Notes under the pieces: generated by a model
What the model saw: only the letters and a program-made list of their open reading frames with translations
Told to the model about the DNA's origin: nothing
Database searches by the model: none
Part shown: one piece after another, positions 935-10,869 of the stretch
How the letters are laid out: every line of letters begins with the position of its first letter
Position numbering within the stretch: position 1 is the first letter of the stretch
Position numbers and translations under genes: made by a program
Origin: Candidatus Latescibacterota bacterium
GTDB taxonomy: Bacteria; JAAXHH01; JABIQT01
NCBI GenBank assembly: GCA_018667995.1
Contig: JABIQT010000971.1
Coordinates: 1-12,205, forward strand
Direction: 5' to 3'
Length of the DNA stretch: 12,205 nt

Positions 935-2941
935 CTACCTACTGGATTTGAGTGACACTGCTTGGTCTAGATCCTCCTGGGCCCCGGTGAGGTCACCCAT
1001 TTGTCGTCTGAGGTTGCTTCTGTTCTGATAAAAAGATGGTTGTGTAGGATTGATCTCGATCGCTCTATCATAGTCCACGCGTGCACCGTTCATATCACCT
1101 AATTGTACTCGGACCACGCCACGGCTATTGAATGCTATACTATCCTGATCATTGAGTGAGATCGTATGGTCGTAGTCCTCCAACGATCCTTGAAGATCAC
1201 CTTGTTGTCGTCGCAGGTTTCCCCTGTTTCGGAAGAAAGTGGATTCAACCGGGTTCAAGGCTATCGCTCTATCATAATCGGCTCGGGCACCTTGGAGATC
1301 TCCCTGCCGGCGGCGCAGAACACCTCGACTGTTATAAGCAGAGCTATATCTCGGATCCAGTGAAATCGCTTTGTCATAGTCCAGACGAGCACCCACCAAA
1401 TCGCCGATTCTCAGGCGGACATTACCGCGCTCGCGAAAATAAACCGGATCAGTGGAATTCATAGCAATTGCCAATCCGAAATCTTTCTCAGCACCAGCCC
1501 AATCCTTGTCATTAAGTCTCTGGAGTCCCCTGTCGTAATATTCTTCGGCCGAATCAAACTCAAACCGACTCTTGGGAGGCTCTGGTGTCGCCGCAGGGGC
1601 AGCTGTTTCCGGCGGACTTTGAATTGCCGGTGGGGGCGTCGGAGCCCGTTGTGGCGCTCTGCCTGCCGTGTTGGTCTGTGCGGGACGGGGTGCGACTTCT
1701 GTACCTGAGCGCTGTGGCAGTCGAAGCGGAGGTATATCTTCCGGGGGTTGAACCGAGGGACCTGCGTTCGGCACCGAAGTTGGCTGCTCCACTGGGGAGG
1801 CTTCGGGCGGTACGGCTGCGACAATCGGTTCGGGCGTTTCGGAAGGAGGTGGAACAGACTCAGTTTGATCAGAACCCGTAGGCGTCGAGAACATAAAGTA
1901 CGCTGCCACGGCGAGTACAACGACTGCGGCACCAAGAATGATTGGCAATCGGTTGGTAGAGTCTGATGTATCTTTGCTACTACTCTCTTTCTCAATAGAT
2001 TCGGCCCGAACGGCCGTGGATTGTTGGTGGTCAACCATCCGGATAGGGGGCGAACTCCCACCAGTAGCCACGTTTTCGAGCGTATCGTAGTCGACTCCCT
2101 CTTCACACCATTTGATGAGGGCGTCGGTCAATTCACTAACGCCATCGTCCTCCATCTTTTTCAACTCATGCACGATCTCGGAGTTTTTTGGAGCTGCCAG
2201 GTCTGCCTGGGAGAGTATCAAGTTTTCATCGTTGCAGTATTCGTCGAGAAGATGCGGTTGCTGGGCGACGGCCAGCATCGAGATGTAACCAACGAGGCCG
2301 GGGAATTGATCGAGATAGGGGCCGAAGGTATCGTTATTTCGGCCTGGGTGGTTCCAATTTGGATGACCCAGCTCGGGAGCTGAATTTCCCTGCATTTTAG
2401 GCACGAACATGCCATCGTAGTCGATTAACTTGACTTCGTCTTGGGGGGTGACGAGGACGTTCCCGTGTTGGAGATCCGCATGGGCCATCTGGAGTCCGTA
2501 AAGGGCACCAACCATTCCCCGCCAGTGCTTCGCCAGGTCCCGGATCATTTCGGGCTGTTCTCTGTGATTTTTTACCCACCGTGTGAGGGTCATACCCTCT
2601 ACCCACGTCATTTTCACGATAGGATACCACGAACCGCCTACTAAGATCCCTTCGGGATGAAAGGAGAAACGTACCATATATGGTACGCCTACCGACCCGA
2701 GGTGTTGGGATACCATCTGGTACCGTAAGTGTTGATCCGTCACCTCGTGGTTGAATGTACGGACCGCCCACATCTTGTCGGCGCATTGGATTTCATAGGC
2801 GCACGCAAAATTACCGGATGCCATCTTGGGCATTCCAAACATATCACACACGACTTCACCGGTCTGCAATTCAGGATCTGAAAAGCACAGTGCGGGCTCT
2901 TGTATTGCCCATCGAAAATCATCCAGTTGTGGCCAGGCCAT
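935..2941 (-). CDS. Membrane-anchored protein kinase-like protein with six C-terminal TPRs
   Basis: The 668-residue protein has four parts. Residues 1-290 are a protein-kinase fold. It has a glycine-poor nucleotide loop near SGNFA (42-46) and a catalytic-loop HADLQHGN (154-161) with Asp156 and Asn161. The DFG position reads DYDG (174-177), followed by a FVP stretch. Residues 332-351 form one transmembrane helix. Residues 360-457 are a Pro/Ala-rich linker. Residues 464-667 are six contiguous 34-residue TPRs. The usual VAIK lysine appears to be Arg61 (AVRTF). With a cytoplasmic kinase domain the TPRs should lie in the periplasm. The ATG at 2941 follows an AAGGG motif and lies 26 bases after the PP2C stop, so the gene is the third member of a VWA-PP2C-kinase operon. 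The kinase family assignment rests on motifs; whether it is active is not shown. Confidence in the domain layout is high. Confidence 0.9.
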   Translation of the reverse strand: MAWPQLDDFRWAIQEPALCFSDPELQTGEVVCDMFGMPKMASGNFACAYEIQCADKMWAVRTFNHEVTDQHLRYQMVSQHLGSVGVPYMVRFSFHPEGILVGGSWYPIVKMTWVEGMTLTRWVKNHREQPEMIRDLAKHWRGMVGALYGLQMAHADLQHGNVLVTPQDEVKLIDYDGMFVPKMQGNSAPELGHPNWNHPGRNNDTFGPYLDQFPGLVGYISMLAVAQQPHLLDEYCNDENLILSQADLAAPKNSEIVHELKKMEDDGVSELTDALIKWCEEGVDYDTLENVATGGSSPPIRMVDHQQSTAVRAESIEKESSSKDTSDSTNRLPIILGAAVVVLAVAAYFMFSTPTGSDQTESVPPPSETPEPIVAAVPPEASPVEQPTSVPNAGPSVQPPEDIPPLRLPQRSGTEVAPRPAQTNTAGRAPQRAPTPPPAIQSPPETAAPAATPEPPKSRFEFDSAEEYYDRGLQRLNDKDWAGAEKDFGLAIAMNSTDPVYFRERGNVRLRIGDLVGARLDYDKAISLDPRYSSAYNSRGVLRRRQGDLQGARADYDRAIALNPVESTFFRNRGNLRRQQGDLQGSLEDYDHTISLNDQDSIAFNSRGVVRVQLGDMNGARVDYDRAIEINPTQPSFYQNRSNLRRQMGDLTGAQEDLDQAVSLKSSR
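941..1552 (-). repeat. Six tandem TPR units with a 68-residue higher-order period
   Basis: Six units of exactly 34 residues (102 bases) follow each other without gaps, at kinase-protein residues 464-497, 498-531, 532-565, 566-599, 600-633 and 634-667. The units alternate in type. Units 2, 4 and 6 begin with an aromatic-rich F/Y-x-RxRGNxR pattern, while units 3 and 5 begin with AYNSRGV or AFNSRGV. The array therefore seems to have grown by copying pairs of TPRs, and the DNA shows a matching period of about 204 bases. TPR arrays usually bind peptides or partner proteins. Confidence 0.85.
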
Positions 2942-2967
2942 TATTTAACCCTTGCTGTCTTCGAGTC

Positions 2968-3738
2968 TCACGCCTGCGTTACCAGCGCTACAGTAGCATC
3001 GTCGTTTCGCATACCTGTTGATCGCGCGCCTTGTACCCAGTGAGCGAACTCCTTGGTGGACTCGATGGCCAGCAGTCTTTCCATTATCGAAGCGTCCTTC
3101 TCTACCGCGTACAAAAGGTATGCGGCTACGGCATCCGTACAGACAATCAGACTTTCGTCGGGTTGCCATTTGCCCGTTTTTCTCCAAAGGGAACTCAACG
3201 CCTGCTTGACTTGCGGACCTGGCATTGACGGAACAAGGGAAGGAGATGTCCCAAATTCATCTGCCGTCTCGGCCGGAACAGACAGTTTTACGATGCCGTT
3301 CTTCCCTACAATGAACAGGTTACAGTCGCCTATTCCAATGGCAGCCCATTTCTGTTCTTCAATTCGAACCGCAAGAAATGTCGCCAGGGCTCCCTGTTGG
3401 GCCTTCTCAACAAATAGCCATCCCAGATCCTCGAGCCGATCCCAAGGCACCTGATCATACCATTTTTGCTGCAGGTCGGCGACCATAGACCCTAATCGCC
3501 GGGACGGAATCAGTCTTTCGAGCATTCTTTCTTTGATGTTGCCGGGCTTCTTAGTCGCCGTGGAGATTGACTCGGCTAGTATCTCCGCCCACTCTCTCGA
3601 ATAGGATGCCTCGGTGGCACCATCAGCAACGGCGAGCCATCCTGCTTGCGCGTCGAATGCCACGGCATCTTCGTTCTCGCGTTCTTTGTGACCGTACTTC
3701 GGCACACTGAAGGCATGAATATGATGAGAGATACTCAC
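2968..3738 (-). CDS. PP2C-like protein serine/threonine phosphatase
   Basis: This is a 256-residue single-domain cytoplasmic protein of the metal-dependent PP2C phosphatase family. The visible metal-site motifs are ENED (21-24), VADGA (37-41, the DG motif with Asp39), GIGDC (135-139, the GD motif), TDA (201-203, where most PP2Cs have S/TDG) and RNDDATVAL (244-252, the closing acidic pair). No signal peptide or membrane helix is visible. The start is a GTG at 3738, chosen because a GAGGG motif sits about eight bases upstream inside the end of the VWA gene. Only three bases separate it from the VWA stop, which indicates translational coupling. The expected role is to reverse phosphorylation by the kinase encoded next. 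The TDA variant seems, from memory, common in PP2Cs of this operon type, so it need not mean loss of activity. Confidence 0.9.
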   Translation of the reverse strand: MSISHHIHAFSVPKYGHKERENEDAVAFDAQAGWLAVADGATEASYSREWAEILAESISTATKKPGNIKERMLERLIPSRRLGSMVADLQQKWYDQVPWDRLEDLGWLFVEKAQQGALATFLAVRIEEQKWAAIGIGDCNLFIVGKNGIVKLSVPAETADEFGTSPSLVPSMPGPQVKQALSSLWRKTGKWQPDESLIVCTDAVAAYLLYAVEKDASIMERLLAIESTKEFAHWVQGARSTGMRNDDATVALVTQA

Positions 3739-3741
3739 TGT

Positions 3742-4629
3742 CTAGCCCTCTCTCATGTCTGCCATGGCCGTCATTCGGGTACCGATATCGAGGAAACGGA
3801 TCAGATCATTCAGGCCACCGTTAAAGACGAACCCGTGGGCCCCCTCTTGAATGTCCATGCCACCCATGACTGCTTCTATTACAAGTTTGTCAGGTAATTC
3901 CGAGGACATTTCAAAGAGATTCTTGGCGTAGCTCTGCAGTTCGTTGTCGGCGGAAGGATACAGGATCGGCGGAAGCTTGGAGTTGGCGGTAATATGAATA
4001 TTGAATAACAGCGCTTTGCTTCTGTTACCATTCTGGGTTTGCATGATTTTCCATGCGGTATACCTGGGATCTCCATCCGTGGAGGCGCCATCTGTTATGT
4101 TAATGATGGTTGGAGGGTATGAATCCGGATGTTCTTCCATCCAAGTATTCATTGATGCCCGCACCGTATCGAATGCATCACACATAGGTGTCTCGCCATC
4201 GGCCTGTGGGTCGATCCAAACAGGATACTTGATGGTCTGCTCCCGCATGCCGCCTTTGCCATCGGGGATCTGGCGCACTCGGTTTTCTATACGGGAAAGG
4301 GTATAGAGTTCCGAAACCGGTACGAGAGGGTGCTCTGGGTCCGTGCCCGGCAGGGCAGTACTCACCGACTGACCGTAGCCCCAGATTCCAACGTAAAAGT
4401 AGTCGCGGATACCTTCGTCCTTTGTGCAGCGCATAATGATATTTGCAAGGCACCGGTTCAGCGCATCCGCTGCTCCCTGTGCCTTTGCGGCATCGGCGGC
4501 GGGAACGTCTTCAAACCCCTCCGCCATGGAACCGGATTGGTCCACAAGAAATGCGATACAGGACGGTTTTGTACGAGATATCTCTTCAGAATACGGGCGC
4601 ACGGCTGCCATAGCCTGCTCCTTCTTCAT
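3742..4629 (-). CDS. von Willebrand factor A (VWA) domain protein of a kinase/phosphatase triad
   Basis: The 295-residue cytoplasmic protein is a single VWA domain with an intact metal-ion-dependent adhesion site. It has DQSGSM at 30-35, a Thr in GETPMCDAF near residue 147, and ITDGASTDGD at 178-187. The C-terminus has an EGAHGFVFN...RFLDIGTR pattern that I recall from VWA proteins encoded beside PP2C and kinase genes. VWA domains usually mediate metal-dependent protein binding, so it may be the substrate or the scaffold of the kinase/phosphatase pair. The ATG at 4629 lacks a strong Shine-Dalgarno; an inverted repeat lies 12-29 bases upstream of it. The gene follows the SDR gene by 45 bases and precedes the PP2C gene by three. 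It resembles TerY in gene context, but TerY as I know it is shorter, so I do not give it that name. Confidence 0.9.
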   Translation of the reverse strand: MKKEQAMAAVRPYSEEISRTKPSCIAFLVDQSGSMAEGFEDVPAADAAKAQGAADALNRCLANIIMRCTKDEGIRDYFYVGIWGYGQSVSTALPGTDPEHPLVPVSELYTLSRIENRVRQIPDGKGGMREQTIKYPVWIDPQADGETPMCDAFDTVRASMNTWMEEHPDSYPPTIINITDGASTDGDPRYTAWKIMQTQNGNRSKALLFNIHITANSKLPPILYPSADNELQSYAKNLFEMSSELPDKLVIEAVMGGMDIQEGAHGFVFNGGLNDLIRFLDIGTRMTAMADMREG

Positions 4630-4674: not shown

Positions 4675-5424
4675 TTACGGGTCGCCTACGATTGTTAATC
4701 CACCATCTACCACAAGTGTCGTTCCAGTAATAAACGAAGCCGCATCAGAGGCGAGAAAAACCACCGCGGATGCAATATCATCGGGGACGCCAAGGCGCTT
4801 CATGGGACAACGATCAATAAAGGGCTTCTTGTCAATCTCCGTCGCGCCCTTCCAGGCACCAGTAAGTATTGCACCTGGTAAGACCGCGTTGACACGTACT
4901 TTCGGAGCGAAATCCACCGCCGCCGATCGGGTCAAGCCGACCACGCCACCCTTTGCAGCATCATAGGCGGCATGGTTTCGGAATGCCACATGGCTATGCA
5001 CGGAGGCGGTGTTCACCACGGAGCCTCCCCCGGAGCGTTCAATGACTGGGATGGCATGCTTTAAGCCCAGAAAGAGGGACTTGAGGCAGACGTCCAGAGT
5101 ACGGTCCCAGTCGTCCTCCGCCAATTCGGTAGCAGAACCAATCACATTTGAAAACGCGTTATTGTGCAATATGTGGAGGTCGCCGTAGCTTTCCGTGGCA
5201 CATTGGACCATGTTGGCTATTTGTTCACTGTCCCCAACGTCCGTTACGCAGGCAGTAACCTGACCACCTGATGCAGACATCTCCGATACAACGGAGGCCA
5301 GCAGTGGGGCGTTAATATCGGCCGCGACAACTCGGGCACCTGCACTTACCATTTGCTTGGCAGTTGCTTTTCCAATGCCTGATGCGGCACCCGTGACAAT
5401 AGCCGTTTTGTCGGATAGCTTCAT
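4675..5424 (-). CDS. SDR family NAD(P)-dependent oxidoreductase
   Basis: This is a classical short-chain dehydrogenase/reductase of 249 residues, the normal length for the family. It has the cofactor-binding TGAASGIG (11-18), Asp36 after the second strand (AADIN), which favours NAD(H), a HNNA motif (87-90), and the catalytic set Ser141, Tyr154 and Lys158 (YDAAK). The C-terminal VVFLAS...GTTLVVDGG is standard. The Gly that normally follows NNA is Phe (NNAF). The ATG at 5424 was chosen over one 27 bases upstream because a GGAG lies six bases before it and the protein then begins at the normal SDR N-terminus. It is the first gene of the minus-strand run leading to the VWA/PP2C/kinase triad. Substrate is unknown; SDR sequence alone does not reveal it. 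Confidence 0.92.
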   Translation of the reverse strand: MKLSDKTAIVTGAASGIGKATAKQMVSAGARVVAADINAPLLASVVSEMSASGGQVTACVTDVGDSEQIANMVQCATESYGDLHILHNNAFSNVIGSATELAEDDWDRTLDVCLKSLFLGLKHAIPVIERSGGGSVVNTASVHSHVAFRNHAAYDAAKGGVVGLTRSAAVDFAPKVRVNAVLPGAILTGAWKGATEIDKKPFIDRCPMKRLGVPDDIASAVVFLASDAASFITGTTLVVDGGLTIVGDP

Positions 5425-5724
5425 GGATATCTCCGATACGCAGCGGCCCATGTTCTTCTCGGATGCCGTATTTTACTCGGAAATTCGTATACTTGATTCT
5501 GGCGTATGTTTTTGAATGCCAGTATATTCTATTGGTTCAGGCCTATGATGTCAATAGCAAATGAAAGTCCACCCGGTGGTTATGTACTGATTGCGGAGAT
5601 CCTGTGAATGCCTGAATGAGGTGAAACTTCGCGACGTGTTTTCTTAAGAATATACAGTCACATGCATGAGTGAATTTATGCAAGAGACATGCCAAATGTT
5701 TCTACCTGCGAGCGGAGGGAGTTG
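5425..5724. promoter_or_regulatory. Divergent intergenic region with nested inverted repeats
   Basis: This 300-base region separates two divergent genes, so it must hold the promoters for the SDR/triad side and probably for the secreted-protein gene. Three dyads are nested within it. The outer arms are GTATATTCT (5522-5530) and AGAATATAC (5647-5655). The inner arms are TTCAGGC (5536-5542) and GCCTGAA (5610-5616). Near their centre is an 11-base palindrome, CCACC-C-GGTGG (5569-5579). The ribosome site for the plus-strand gene is GGAGGGAG ending a few bases before 5725. I could not assign -35/-10 boxes with confidence, and no small gene is apparent. Confidence 0.4.
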
Positions 5725-6702
5725 ATGGGGAGGCGTAATTTCGATTTTCGAAAGTGGTTTTTGATACTAAATATGTCTCTATTGGTGTTCGTGTATGACA
5801 TGGTTGGCACGGCGCAGGCGCAAGACGGTAACAAAGGATTGTTGAACGCCCTGTCGAGGACCTATTCCCTTATCAGGACTTACGAATCCGGTGACACCGA
5901 CTATTATCAGATTACGAGGCGTGAACACATTGTTGATGCTCATGGGCAAACTGCAGGAAATGCCGTGAGCGCAGGGCGTTTCAAGCGAGAGATTACACAC
6001 GCTGAAAACTCTGGGAGGCAGTTGGCGCGGTATACGTGGAAGGCCTTCGCGCGAGGCCAGTTCGACGGCAGTACAACCGATGTCAAACCCATCGAGATTT
6101 CAGCAATATCAGGATTCACCTATGACCTTGAGTCTGACGATCGGCACAGTGTGCCACCGATTCAGATAGGAGGGCTCGCAAAAACCTCCGATACCTTTAC
6201 GTTTTTCGTCTTGGCTTGGGACTTGGCTGTGTTGGAGAGTGTCGTGAGCGACCGGGCCGGATATTCGCTATCCGCTTTGAAGCATGTGGGTGACCGCATT
6301 ACCGACAGCGATCCCTATCTACCTGCAGTTTTTGATTTTACGCCTGTCGTCTCAGACTTCTCGCATACTCGCTCCCCGCTTACATCCACGTTTTCCGGAT
6401 TCACCGCTCTCGCGAAAACCCCCGCTGTCCAGATTTCGTATTCGGCACCATCGAGTCCTATGTCATATGCCTTCACCGACGGACGTATCGCCGTGCAACT
6501 TGAGGGTAGGGAATGGGTCAGTGGTAGCATTTTGCTCGACATGTCTGATAATTCAATGCTACAGGGCATATTGGAGACAACAACCGTTGTTTCCCAACGA
6601 GCGCAGATACCGGGTAAGAACTTGAGTTTTCCTCTCACGATTTTTCAGGACGTCTTGCTAGAGAAAATCTCAGAGGGCGACTACGATGAGGACGCTCCAT
6701 AG
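5725..6702 (+). CDS. Secreted protein of unknown family
   Basis: I do not recognise this 325-residue protein. The N-terminus looks like a signal peptide. A basic stretch at residues 1-10 leads into a hydrophobic core at about 11-28, and a likely signal-peptidase I site follows AQA at residue 32, so the mature protein is probably periplasmic or exported. There is no lipobox Cys and no second membrane helix. The mature part alternates polar and hydrophobic residues as in beta-rich folds. It has few or no cysteines and ends in an acidic tail (EGDYDEDAP). The ATG at 5725 is preferred to the in-frame ATG at 5689 because GGAGGGAG precedes it at proper spacing and it begins directly at the basic signal-peptide region. 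It lies 114 bases before kduD on the same strand. A link to carbohydrate use is only a guess from that neighbour. Confidence 0.8.
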   Translation: MGRRNFDFRKWFLILNMSLLVFVYDMVGTAQAQDGNKGLLNALSRTYSLIRTYESGDTDYYQITRREHIVDAHGQTAGNAVSAGRFKREITHAENSGRQLARYTWKAFARGQFDGSTTDVKPIEISAISGFTYDLESDDRHSVPPIQIGGLAKTSDTFTFFVLAWDLAVLESVVSDRAGYSLSALKHVGDRITDSDPYLPAVFDFTPVVSDFSHTRSPLTSTFSGFTALAKTPAVQISYSAPSSPMSYAFTDGRIAVQLEGREWVSGSILLDMSDNSMLQGILETTTVVSQRAQIPGKNLSFPLTIFQDVLLEKISEGDYDEDAP

Positions 6703-7659: not shown

Positions 7660-7811
7660 TCTGTTACCGCATTGCTACGTTTACATTACTTCCTCTCCAA
7701 ATGCTTTTATTCAAATCCTTCGCAGCTGTCCAGGCATTCACACTAGCTTGAGTCATCTTAGAGCAATAGCTTTTTTTGTCACATTTAGGGTCCTTCGCGA
7801 CAATACCGTGT

Positions 7812-8348
7812 ATGAAGCATTCCAATGACAAAAGCATCAAGTTCGACAGCCTCGTTCTAGAACACCATGTTAGGCTCCGCGCATTTGTTCGATCGCTTGG
7901 GGTAGATGCGGATTGGGTGGATGACTTATCTCAGGAAGCATTTATGACAGCCTACGAGGAGTGGGAGACATTCGACTCAAAGCGAGATTTTGGCAAATGG
8001 GTACGTGGTATCGCCGCGAATATCGTTCGGAACGAGATACGCAAACAATCCCGGAGACGGCGCATTCTTAACTCGGACCTCACACATTTACTATTGAATC
8101 ATCACGGGCAATTGGCAGAGCGATCTTTGCCTATGACCGTTGTAGCAATTCGGGCATGCCTGGCAAAATTGAATTCCGAAAACCGAAATATCATCCAAGG
8201 ACGATACGTTGATGGCTTCTCAATTCTTGAGCTTGCTGATCGGTTTGGTAAATCGGCGGCCAATATGCGGCAGATTCTGTTAAGGATCCGACGTCAGATT
8301 CGTTCATGCGTTGAGTCACACATCACAATGGAGGATTACCATGGGTGA
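7812..8348 (+). CDS. ECF-type RNA polymerase sigma-70 factor
   Basis: The 178-residue protein has sigma region 2 at about residues 13-80, including DLSQEAFMTAYEEW (38-51) and GKWVRGIAANIVRNEIRK (61-78). Region 4 is at about 112-166, with a helix-turn-helix around SILELADRFGKSAANMRQ. No region 3 is present, as in extracytoplasmic-function sigma factors. The style resembles the sigma-70 group described from Rhodopirellula and Verrucomicrobium. The ATG at 7812 is preferred to an in-frame TTG at 7776, since the added residues would match nothing in the family; neither has a clear Shine-Dalgarno. Its last eight bases overlap the FecR gene, whose ribosome site lies inside this gene, so the two are translationally coupled. 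The likely role is directing transcription of a small regulon when released by the adjacent anti-sigma. Which promoters it reads is unknown. Confidence 0.9.
   Translation: MKHSNDKSIKFDSLVLEHHVRLRAFVRSLGVDADWVDDLSQEAFMTAYEEWETFDSKRDFGKWVRGIAANIVRNEIRKQSRRRRILNSDLTHLLLNHHGQLAERSLPMTVVAIRACLAKLNSENRNIIQGRYVDGFSILELADRFGKSAANMRQILLRIRRQIRSCVESHITMEDYHG
8329..8348 (+). promoter_or_regulatory. Ribosome site and coupled stop/start between sigma and FecR genes
   Basis: GGAGG begins at about 8330, some seven bases before the ATG at 8341. The sigma TGA is at 8346-8348, so the start of the anti-sigma lies before the end of the sigma gene. This decides the FecR start over an in-frame TTG at 8311 and keeps sigma and anti-sigma production linked. 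Confidence 0.8.
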
Positions 8349-9783
8349 TGATCGCTTCGTGGAACTGTTGGGCTGTCTGCTGGATGGTGAATTATCAGAG
8401 GACGAGCTGTCGGAATTAGCCTTGTTGGCGAAGGATGATCCTGGACGTCAGCAGGAAATCCAGGTCCAGCTGGAAGGGGAAGAGCTGATCGCCCTTTCGA
8501 AAGATGACCTTCGCGATAGCACTCTTTTCTTATCAGCCCTTCAGAACCGGATTTCTCATGACACGTCCGGATCGCCGATAGGTACCAGACTGTCATTTAC
8601 CAGGCGTGGTGGTTGGCGAAATGTGTTGATTCCGAGCATGGTCAGTGCGGCCGCAATTGCTCTTATTATATCGGTTTTCATTTTTTGGTCTCCTGGCGAC
8701 CACAATAATGTGGCGCAATTAGTTCAGGCCGAAGGTCTGCTTCGATGGACTGGTGATGGTGGACGGATTGACGAAACGCTTGATGTTGGGAGGCCTTTGT
8801 CTGGCGGTACTTTGGAACTGTTAGCTCCGGATGCTGGAGCCACTTTACGGTTTGCTGACCAGACTTCCGTGACGATCTCCGGACTGGCCATGTTGACACT
8901 TTCAGAGTACTCTCAAAAAGTCCTGCATCTTCGGTACGGTGTCCTTTCAGCGAACGTTTCAATGCAACCCGAACAAGAGGCAATGGTTTTACACACGGTT
9001 AACGCGGAACTCCTGATCGAGGGTACGCAGTTCAGCGTAGTGGCCGATCCCTCGCTGACCCGACTCACTGTCCATGAGGGGCGCGTTCGGATTAAGCGAC
9101 TTTCCGATGGAGAAGAGGCGGAGATAGGTGCGGCACAGCAATCTATCGTTCGTATCGATGACCAGGATCCGTTGCGTGTAGTTGCCCTTGGTGAGTCTAA
9201 GTATTCCTGGCGTGCGAATCTCGCGGACGATGTAGCCGCTGGATGGTCGCAGGAAGACGCACTCTCTGCATATGGAACACAGGTCCGTAACGCGGTAGGT
9301 CAAGGCGAAATGACTGATGCTGATGCCAGGGATAGCTACATGCAGTTTGTGCTACAACTTAAGGCTGAGGCACGTCTCGGTGCGGTGCCAATGCAGACTC
9401 AAAGTCGGACTGGTGGACTTAGCGGTGACCGAGGGGGCGTGTCATACATGATTGCCTTCTCTGTGCCGAGAGGGAATGATGCCGTGCCAGTTATCTTGGC
9501 GGAGAACAGCCACTTTCGCATTCAGGGTCGGGTGCAGACGCCCGCTGATGTAGAGTTCGGATTCGCGGTGTTGGATGCAGACGGAAAAGCCGGCGGAAAA
9601 TACAGGACGATACAGAGCATAGATTCAGACTTCGATCTGGTGCTACCTGCATCGATTTTTGAGATGCTGGATAATCAAGGTATCCAGTCTGCATCAGGGC
9701 GGACACTCGTAACTTGGTGGTGTTCCGCGAATGATCGGGATATAGGTCTGGAGATAACCGGTGTTGCTCTGGATCGACCGTAA
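8341..9783 (+). CDS. FecR-domain membrane protein, probable anti-sigma factor
   Basis: The 480-residue protein is a single-pass membrane regulator. Residues 1-75 are an acidic helical cytoplasmic domain (LLDGELSEDELSEL at 13-26) of the kind that sits N-terminal to FecR domains in PVC bacteria and probably binds the sigma factor. Residues 97-117 are the transmembrane helix. Residues about 155-275 form a FecR-like beta domain with LEL...GATLRFADQTSVTISG and IEGTQFSVVAD...LTVHEGRV, which is diagnostic. Residues about 300-345 are helical. Residues 365-480 are a separate beta-rich domain facing the periplasm that I cannot name. It may be a ligand-binding module. Family knowledge says FecR proteins pass an envelope signal to the sigma factor. 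Unlike the Bacteroidota SusC-linked FecR, this one is longer and has the extra C-terminal domain. Nothing proves it is an anti-sigma rather than a sigma activator. Confidence 0.88.
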   Translation: MGDDRFVELLGCLLDGELSEDELSELALLAKDDPGRQQEIQVQLEGEELIALSKDDLRDSTLFLSALQNRISHDTSGSPIGTRLSFTRRGGWRNVLIPSMVSAAAIALIISVFIFWSPGDHNNVAQLVQAEGLLRWTGDGGRIDETLDVGRPLSGGTLELLAPDAGATLRFADQTSVTISGLAMLTLSEYSQKVLHLRYGVLSANVSMQPEQEAMVLHTVNAELLIEGTQFSVVADPSLTRLTVHEGRVRIKRLSDGEEAEIGAAQQSIVRIDDQDPLRVVALGESKYSWRANLADDVAAGWSQEDALSAYGTQVRNAVGQGEMTDADARDSYMQFVLQLKAEARLGAVPMQTQSRTGGLSGDRGGVSYMIAFSVPRGNDAVPVILAENSHFRIQGRVQTPADVEFGFAVLDADGKAGGKYRTIQSIDSDFDLVLPASIFEMLDNQGIQSASGRTLVTWWCSANDRDIGLEITGVALDRP

Positions 9784-10086: not shown

Positions 10087-10869
10087 ATGAGAGCGATATT
10101 TTTCATAGCAATCCTGTCGATCGTGGGGGGAACGCCTCCGGACTCAACAGTCGCCCAGGAGTTTGATGGTGGGACCGTTTTTTACCAGAAGACGGTAAAG
10201 TATGGATTTGAGAGTGTATATGGCGGAGAAATCAGCGACCCTCGCAAACAGCAGTGGTTAGAATCATTGCCCAAGGAGGGGAAGCAGGTTGGGGTCCTCT
10301 ATTTTACTAAGAACATTGCTCGCTATGAAGGAGATTCCTCGGAGCAGGAAGCTCAGTCACCATCACTTCAATGGGCCATCCAAGGAGCTTTTAAGCGCCG
10401 GCCGCCAAAACCAGAACTGAAGCAGGTGTACTATGATTTCGACGCGAAAAGGAAGACGGAACAGGTTGGCTTTATGATGCGTGATTTTCTTATGGAGTCA
10501 GAGATAGATCGCCAGACCTGGAAGCTGACCAATAGACTTGTCAAGGTACACGGCTATACCTGCATGGCCGCCGAGAGGAAAGAAGGCGAAAAGAGCGTTA
10601 CTGCCTGGTTCGCCTCCGAGATCCCGGTGCATGTGGGACCTGACAGATACTTCGGATTGCCAGGCCTGATACTCGTAGTTGAAGTAGACGGCGAAACGGT
10701 TTATATGGCCACCTCCGTTACTTTGGTGCGGCCGGAGGATGATTCATTGGCGGAACTGGAAGATGGTAAAAAGATAAGCGAGAGTGAATTCGACAAGATA
10801 GTAGAAGAAAAGGTGCTGGAATTCAACGAGATCATGAAATCTGGCAAGGGGAATGGTAGCGGAAAGTAA
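10087..10869 (+). CDS. GLPGLI family secreted protein
   Basis: The 260-residue protein carries the family-defining GLPGLIL motif at residues 190-196. It is preceded by the typical region with WKLTNR (145-150), a conserved GYTCMAA patch (156-162) and TAWFASEIPVHVGP (172-185). The first 23 residues form a signal peptide with likely cleavage after TVA, so it is exported to the periplasm or cell surface. The C-terminus is charged and lysine/glutamate-rich. GLPGLI proteins are of unknown function; in Bacteroidota they are often encoded beside outer-membrane receptor genes, as here. The ATG at 10087 follows AGAGGAG at proper spacing. The next gene starts 36 bases downstream, so the two are probably co-transcribed. 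Charge pattern and motif make the family call firm, although the family is unusual next to a PVC-type sigma factor. Confidence 0.9.
   Translation: MRAIFFIAILSIVGGTPPDSTVAQEFDGGTVFYQKTVKYGFESVYGGEISDPRKQQWLESLPKEGKQVGVLYFTKNIARYEGDSSEQEAQSPSLQWAIQGAFKRRPPKPELKQVYYDFDAKRKTEQVGFMMRDFLMESEIDRQTWKLTNRLVKVHGYTCMAAERKEGEKSVTAWFASEIPVHVGPDRYFGLPGLILVVEVDGETVYMATSVTLVRPEDDSLAELEDGKKISESEFDKIVEEKVLEFNEIMKSGKGNGSGK

Follow-up and report, generated by a model that had tools for sequence, protein, structure and literature searches.

A TerY-P-type triad whose kinase carries a predicted membrane helix and a TPR tail, and the exchange of kinase tails among its relatives

The DNA analysed here (the window) is one entire contig of 12.2 kb from a draft genome of 6.06 Mb assigned to Candidatus Latescibacterota. 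Its minus strand carries three ORFs separated by 3 and 26 bases, exactly as an earlier note made from the letters alone had stated. They encode a TerY-type VWA protein of 295 aa (3742..4629), a PP2C-type Ser/Thr phosphatase of 256 aa (2968..3738) and a Ser/Thr kinase of 668 aa with a TM helix and a TPR tail (935..2941). On motif reading, the MIDAS of the VWA protein (DxSxS...T...D) is complete, with DQSGS, T147 and D180. Generic Pfam models gave weak matches for VWA (9.5e-4) and Pkinase (3.6e-4), both under the curated cut-offs, and PP2C_2 matched the phosphatase at 1.8e-12. Despite this weakness, the specific PADLOC TerY-P models are decisive for identity, as they match all three proteins: TerY at 1.4e-83 over the whole protein (residues 12-288), PP2C at 5e-29, and STK_OB at 2e-67. 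These searches of each protein, which the earlier note had proposed, uphold its assignment to a TerY-P-type phosphorylation triad. A novel gene system, also considered, is ruled out by the same matches. The VWA protein had also been described as longer than TerY; this does not hold against the TerY-P TerY model, whose length is 277, and is true only when the comparison is with small TerY-like proteins, for example YegL (219 aa).

The STK_OB match is confined to the catalytic half of the kinase (profile positions 1-285 of 562); where the OB half would be expected, the protein has a TM helix, a Pro-rich linker and TPRs. The TerY-P-family kinase domain (aa 1-297, 2051..2941, minus strand) was modelled by AlphaFold2 with a pLDDT of 94, and its Foldseek matches are protein kinases. 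Downstream, on the same strand, follow a predicted TM helix (aa 333-351, 1889..1945, hydropathy 2.5), a linker of 108 aa with 28% Pro (1565..1888) and six TPR units (938..1546; TPR_2 8e-27). The PADLOC STK_OB match, ending at position 285 of 562, indicates the absence of a C-terminal OB fold, and the lack of any CxxC in the tail indicates the absence of a zinc ribbon, so that the layout proposed earlier stands. Lys and Arg residues precede the TM helix and few or none follow it directly, both in the window kinase and in a relative (L004), which predicts that the kinase domain lies inside and the TPRs outside. Accordingly, hydropathy and flanking charge lead us to predict a membrane-anchored kinase with its TPRs outside the cytoplasm, the orientation already suggested in the earlier note.

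At the position of the beta3 Lys the window kinase has Arg61 (window 2759-2761), which is unusual in an active kinase family. The other catalytic motifs read HAD156LQHGN161 and D174YDG. Of the 92 kinase-domain matches listed, 74 have Arg here and 18 have Lys, whereas the HxD Asp is kept in 89, and the Asn and the Mg-binding Asp of DYD in all 92; the beta5 Lys (K110) is kept in 85. In model kinases, replacing the beta3 Lys by Arg usually abolishes activity, and the prevalence of Arg here makes catalytic strength uncertain. The protein could therefore be a weak kinase or a pseudokinase, a membrane-TPR scaffold that assembles an envelope complex while the TerY protein and PP2C act mainly on the products of other kinases. 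The usually inactivating Lys-to-Arg change, present in most of the matches listed, is what speaks for this. Nevertheless, we consider it improbable, given the near-complete retention of the catalytic Asp, Asn and Mg-binding Asp, the 18 family members with a beta3 Lys, and a PP2C partner kept beside the kinase.

The triad lies between two genes of the same strand. An SDR dehydrogenase gene (4675..5451) lies 45 bases upstream of TerY, and a MATE-type exporter gene, cut by the contig end (1..732), follows the kinase. A promoter-like TTGACA-17-TAGAAT sequence lies before the SDR gene (5554-5526) and a terminator-like site between the kinase and MATE genes. The two would fit an SDR-TerY-PP2C-kinase transcription unit, of which SDR is likely the first gene, although the promoter-like count is not above chance and promoter- and terminator-like sites are no commoner than in shuffled sequences. 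On the plus strand, a secreted-looking protein of 337 aa with no Pfam family (5689-6702) is encoded next; its counterparts adjoin the triad site in two genomes of the order (G001 and G011, 35-37% identity), and a search of the order's other 13 genomes found none. Further along are a second SDR gene and, on the plus strand, genes for an ECF sigma factor and then a FecR-like membrane protein (7776-9783). After these come genes for a Porph_ging protein (10087-10869) and for an outer-membrane receptor-like protein whose reading frame is still open where the contig ends (10906-12204). No RNA element was found in the window. Pfam searches of the other window ORFs found no defence or ter genes, and no GTPase family was present among the ORFs scanned.

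To place this arrangement, sixteen genomes of the order were compared. The triad occupies one fixed site, between the SDR gene and the MATE exporter, in two families. In G001, which belongs to a family other than that of the window, the row reads MATE, kinase, PP2C, TerY, SDR, the unknown secreted-looking protein and a second SDR, with the same order and orientation as in the window and flanks that are equally free of defence genes and of GTPase/GAP1 genes. Its triad is intact and has the same kinase-TM-TPR layout; identity to the window is 57% for PP2C, 64% for TerY and 67% for the kinase domain, a range that also covers the SDRs. In a third family, the triad persists only as wreckage in two genera, represented by G011 and G013, and the remaining genomes of the order, all of one genus, had no TerY match.

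Two forms of decay can be seen. In G011, one contig ends in the start of TerY, beside the SDR gene and the unknown secreted-looking gene. Another contig of that genome begins with a TerY fragment that runs, out of frame, into the kinase's TPR-coding region (L131:2-670); MATE comes next, and the PP2C gene and the kinase domain have apparently been deleted. A weak STK_OB match elsewhere in G011 (C59) was not accepted as a triad kinase. In G013, the row comprises the second SDR, a transposase-like ORF, a TPR-tail remnant and MATE; the transposase-like ORF adjoins the kinase-TPR remnant (L121:8644-10430), and a TM-like stretch is encoded before the remnant in another frame. Both genomes are draft assemblies; since the G011 fusion lies inside a contig and the G013 remnant beside a transposase-like ORF, real decay is likelier than contig gaps. 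The triad thus seems to have disappeared on more than one occasion within the order, and its three genes are either kept together or decay together, in agreement with the joint conservation that the earlier note had expected of a true module.

The site shared by two families, with remnants in a third, indicates that it is old in the order and that the triad was inherited vertically with losses. A recently acquired island was also considered for this order and is ruled out by the same distribution and by a GC content like that of the host (0.53 for the triad, 0.52 for the contig). The same comparison bears on the idea that the triad is a local detoxification unit regulating the neighbouring SDR enzyme and MATE exporter. 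SDR, TerY, PP2C and kinase are co-directional with short gaps in the window and in G001, SDR and TerY are adjacent also in G011, and MATE comes next in G001, G011 and G013. However, this conservation is confined to one order, and different genes surround related triads; all 16 genomes of the order retain MATE, whether or not they have the triad, and the terminator-like site separates it from the kinase. Such a local role is therefore the least probable of the explanations we considered.

TerY-P was reportedly described by Anantharaman et al. in 2012 as a triad with a zinc-ribbon kinase, and Gao et al. are said to have presented in 2020 an antiphage TerY-P system with an OB-fold kinase. TerY-P was originally defined with zinc-ribbon kinases and also occurs in CoCoNuT systems, whereas the kinase of the antiphage form is fused to an OB fold (PMC11090510). 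T7-like phages are countered by TerY-P (PMC7699616), and a TerY-P system protects P. aeruginosa from Autographiviridae (PMC10889362). The window locus shares with the OB-fold form (PADLOC TerY, PP2C and STK_OB) its three genes, the TerY and PP2C families and the kinase-domain family, but the OB half is replaced and there is no defence context. With the zinc-ribbon form it shares VWA, PP2C and kinase genes in one cluster, without the zinc ribbon and without nuclease, helicase or ter genes nearby. With the defining tails absent, the window triad lies outside both forms.

Membrane-bound kinases in such triads have precedents. E. coli K-12 carries yegL-pphC-yegI, with the same VWA-PP2C-kinase order; YegI, a membrane-bound kinase, phosphorylates itself, and its neighbour PphC dephosphorylates it (PMC13232886). 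The tail of YegI is different, however, and any sequence kinship to the window kinase would be remote; the family profiles (Z=1000) gave 9.5e-7 for YegL, 0.003 for YegI and 1.2 for PphC. Actinobacterial kinase-PP2C-vWA sets in GAP1-N2 GTPase systems also include kinases fused to TM helices (Kaur et al., 2020, PMC7159879), as in the window, but the window has no GTPase or GAP1 genes, and a TPR tail is not mentioned for the actinobacterial kinases. Kinase-TPR and kinase-pentapeptide proteins in general were already listed in 2005 (PMC1262709). The triad is of a known kind, and TM-bound kinases are published for VWA-PP2C-kinase triads (PMC7159879; E. coli YegI); it is TerY-P in the broad sense, of a new tail variant. 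In the open-access literature, where silence is weak evidence, we found neither a TM-TPR tail on a TerY-P kinase nor tail exchange described.

Relatives of the kinase were sought in 84,980 species genomes, where more than 500 were found, and the best 80 of these were used, a sample biased toward the window kinase's branch. In these best 80, with the window and G001 included, the order VWA-PP2C-kinase held in 55/55 same-strand clusters from many phyla. Across about 85 related kinases, a predicted TM helix is present in 68 of the 82 tails of at least 100 aa, and about a dozen tails have no clear TM helix. Pfam recognised pentapeptide repeats in 11 tails, WD40 in 9 and TPR in 7; another 31 tails form one sequence-similarity group, whose tested members gave no convincing Pfam match, and single tails carry ricin-type lectin, Lcl_C or hydrolase-like domains, or zinc ribbons. 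The pentapeptide tails belong to cyanobacterial kinases (L047, L061, L063, L065, L067, L077, L083, L085, L087, L088 and L094), each with a PP2C gene adjacent and no VWA gene detected in the stretch fetched. Eleven Pseudanabaena-type loci have PP2C and kinase genes and no VWA gene in the fetched stretch; together with the tails lacking a clear TM helix, they indicate that not every relative needs the membrane or a VWA protein. In Obscuribacterales/Melainabacteria, kinases of this family occur in tandem at three loci (L052, L068 and L073); at L052 and L073 the VWA and PP2C genes lie on the other strand.

Mapped on a kinase-domain tree, six tail classes require 22 changes against a minimum of 5, counts that are approximate because the tree was built by a quick method and leaves many forks open, and because the class 'other' is mixed. 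The starred branches alone force at least 3 changes for TPR and at least 5 for WD40, and in one strongly supported clade five Thiotrichaceae kinases carry four tail types, TPR and WD40 among them. In tail sequence, the window's TPR tail clusters solely with that of G001. A tail that changes type about 22 times on a constant core behaves as expected of an exchangeable input domain.

These relatives also allow the defence function raised in the earlier note to be weighed. The window triad could be an antiphage form of TerY-P in which the TPR tail recognises phage at the envelope and the kinase then sets off the defence. The PADLOC TerY-P models match all three proteins, the published activities described above concern phages, relatives are located on two plasmids, and patchy loss within the order would suit an accessory function. 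Set against this are the missing OB half of the tested defence kinase, the lack of any defence neighbour in the window, and a fixed, non-mobile site across families. Furthermore, among the 135 genes that neighbour related triads, none of the PADLOC families was matched more than 3 times, the sporadic matches were mostly to generic families with generic kinases the commonest, and Pfam revealed no common partner. A search of 50,697 phage records for TerY relatives gave 0 matches. A defence island is not supported by Pfam in the window or by PADLOC on the neighbours of related triads. The defence or stress context suggested earlier is likewise not what we see: MATE, SDR, ECF/FecR and outer-membrane-receptor-like genes flank the triad, and these flanks recur in another family. 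The earlier note had itself held that homologous triads always lying in core contexts without defence or stress neighbours would speak against such a role. This is the situation in the window lineage, with its fixed context, and defence-model matches beside relatives elsewhere are only sporadic; the tabulation it had proposed showed tails that vary (TPR, WD40, pentapeptide and others) and no dominant defence family. Overall, we regard an antiphage role for the window triad as unlikely, if less so than a scaffold or a local detoxification unit.

The explanation that we favour, with some confidence, is a membrane-anchored phosphorylation switch of TerY-P type, vertically inherited, with an exchangeable outer tail that reads an envelope cue. 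A single TM helix would hold the cytoplasmic kinase domain at the inner membrane and display the TPR tail outside. When the tail binds an envelope protein or peptide, the kinase would change its state, so that signalling would run inwards. The kinase would then phosphorylate itself and a partner, its putative target; PP2C would reset the kinase, and the MIDAS-bearing TerY protein may bind or gate the phosphorylated partner. The autophosphorylation of E. coli YegI and its reversal by PphC speak for such a switch. In the window lineage, the triad would be a chromosomal regulatory unit, vertically inherited and losable.

More tentatively, and with less confidence than for the window itself, the TerY-P core may serve bacteria generally as a receptor-kinase platform. 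Its VWA-PP2C-kinase set would be constant, usually with Arg at the beta3 position of the Lys that anchors ATP, and in most cases a TM helix would connect it to a replaceable repeat domain (TPR, WD40, pentapeptide, lectin and others) on which the sensed cue depends. If so, the published antiphage OB-fold form would be a specialised branch within a far broader signalling family. As TerY-P is catalogued as an antiphage system, annotators would label the window locus as defence. Our evidence suggests that, in at least one lineage, this core acts as a vertically inherited signalling switch at the membrane, and that the family diversifies by exchanging tails. This affects how TerY-P matches in defence catalogues should be treated, and the natural tail swaps allow tests of the role of the tail.
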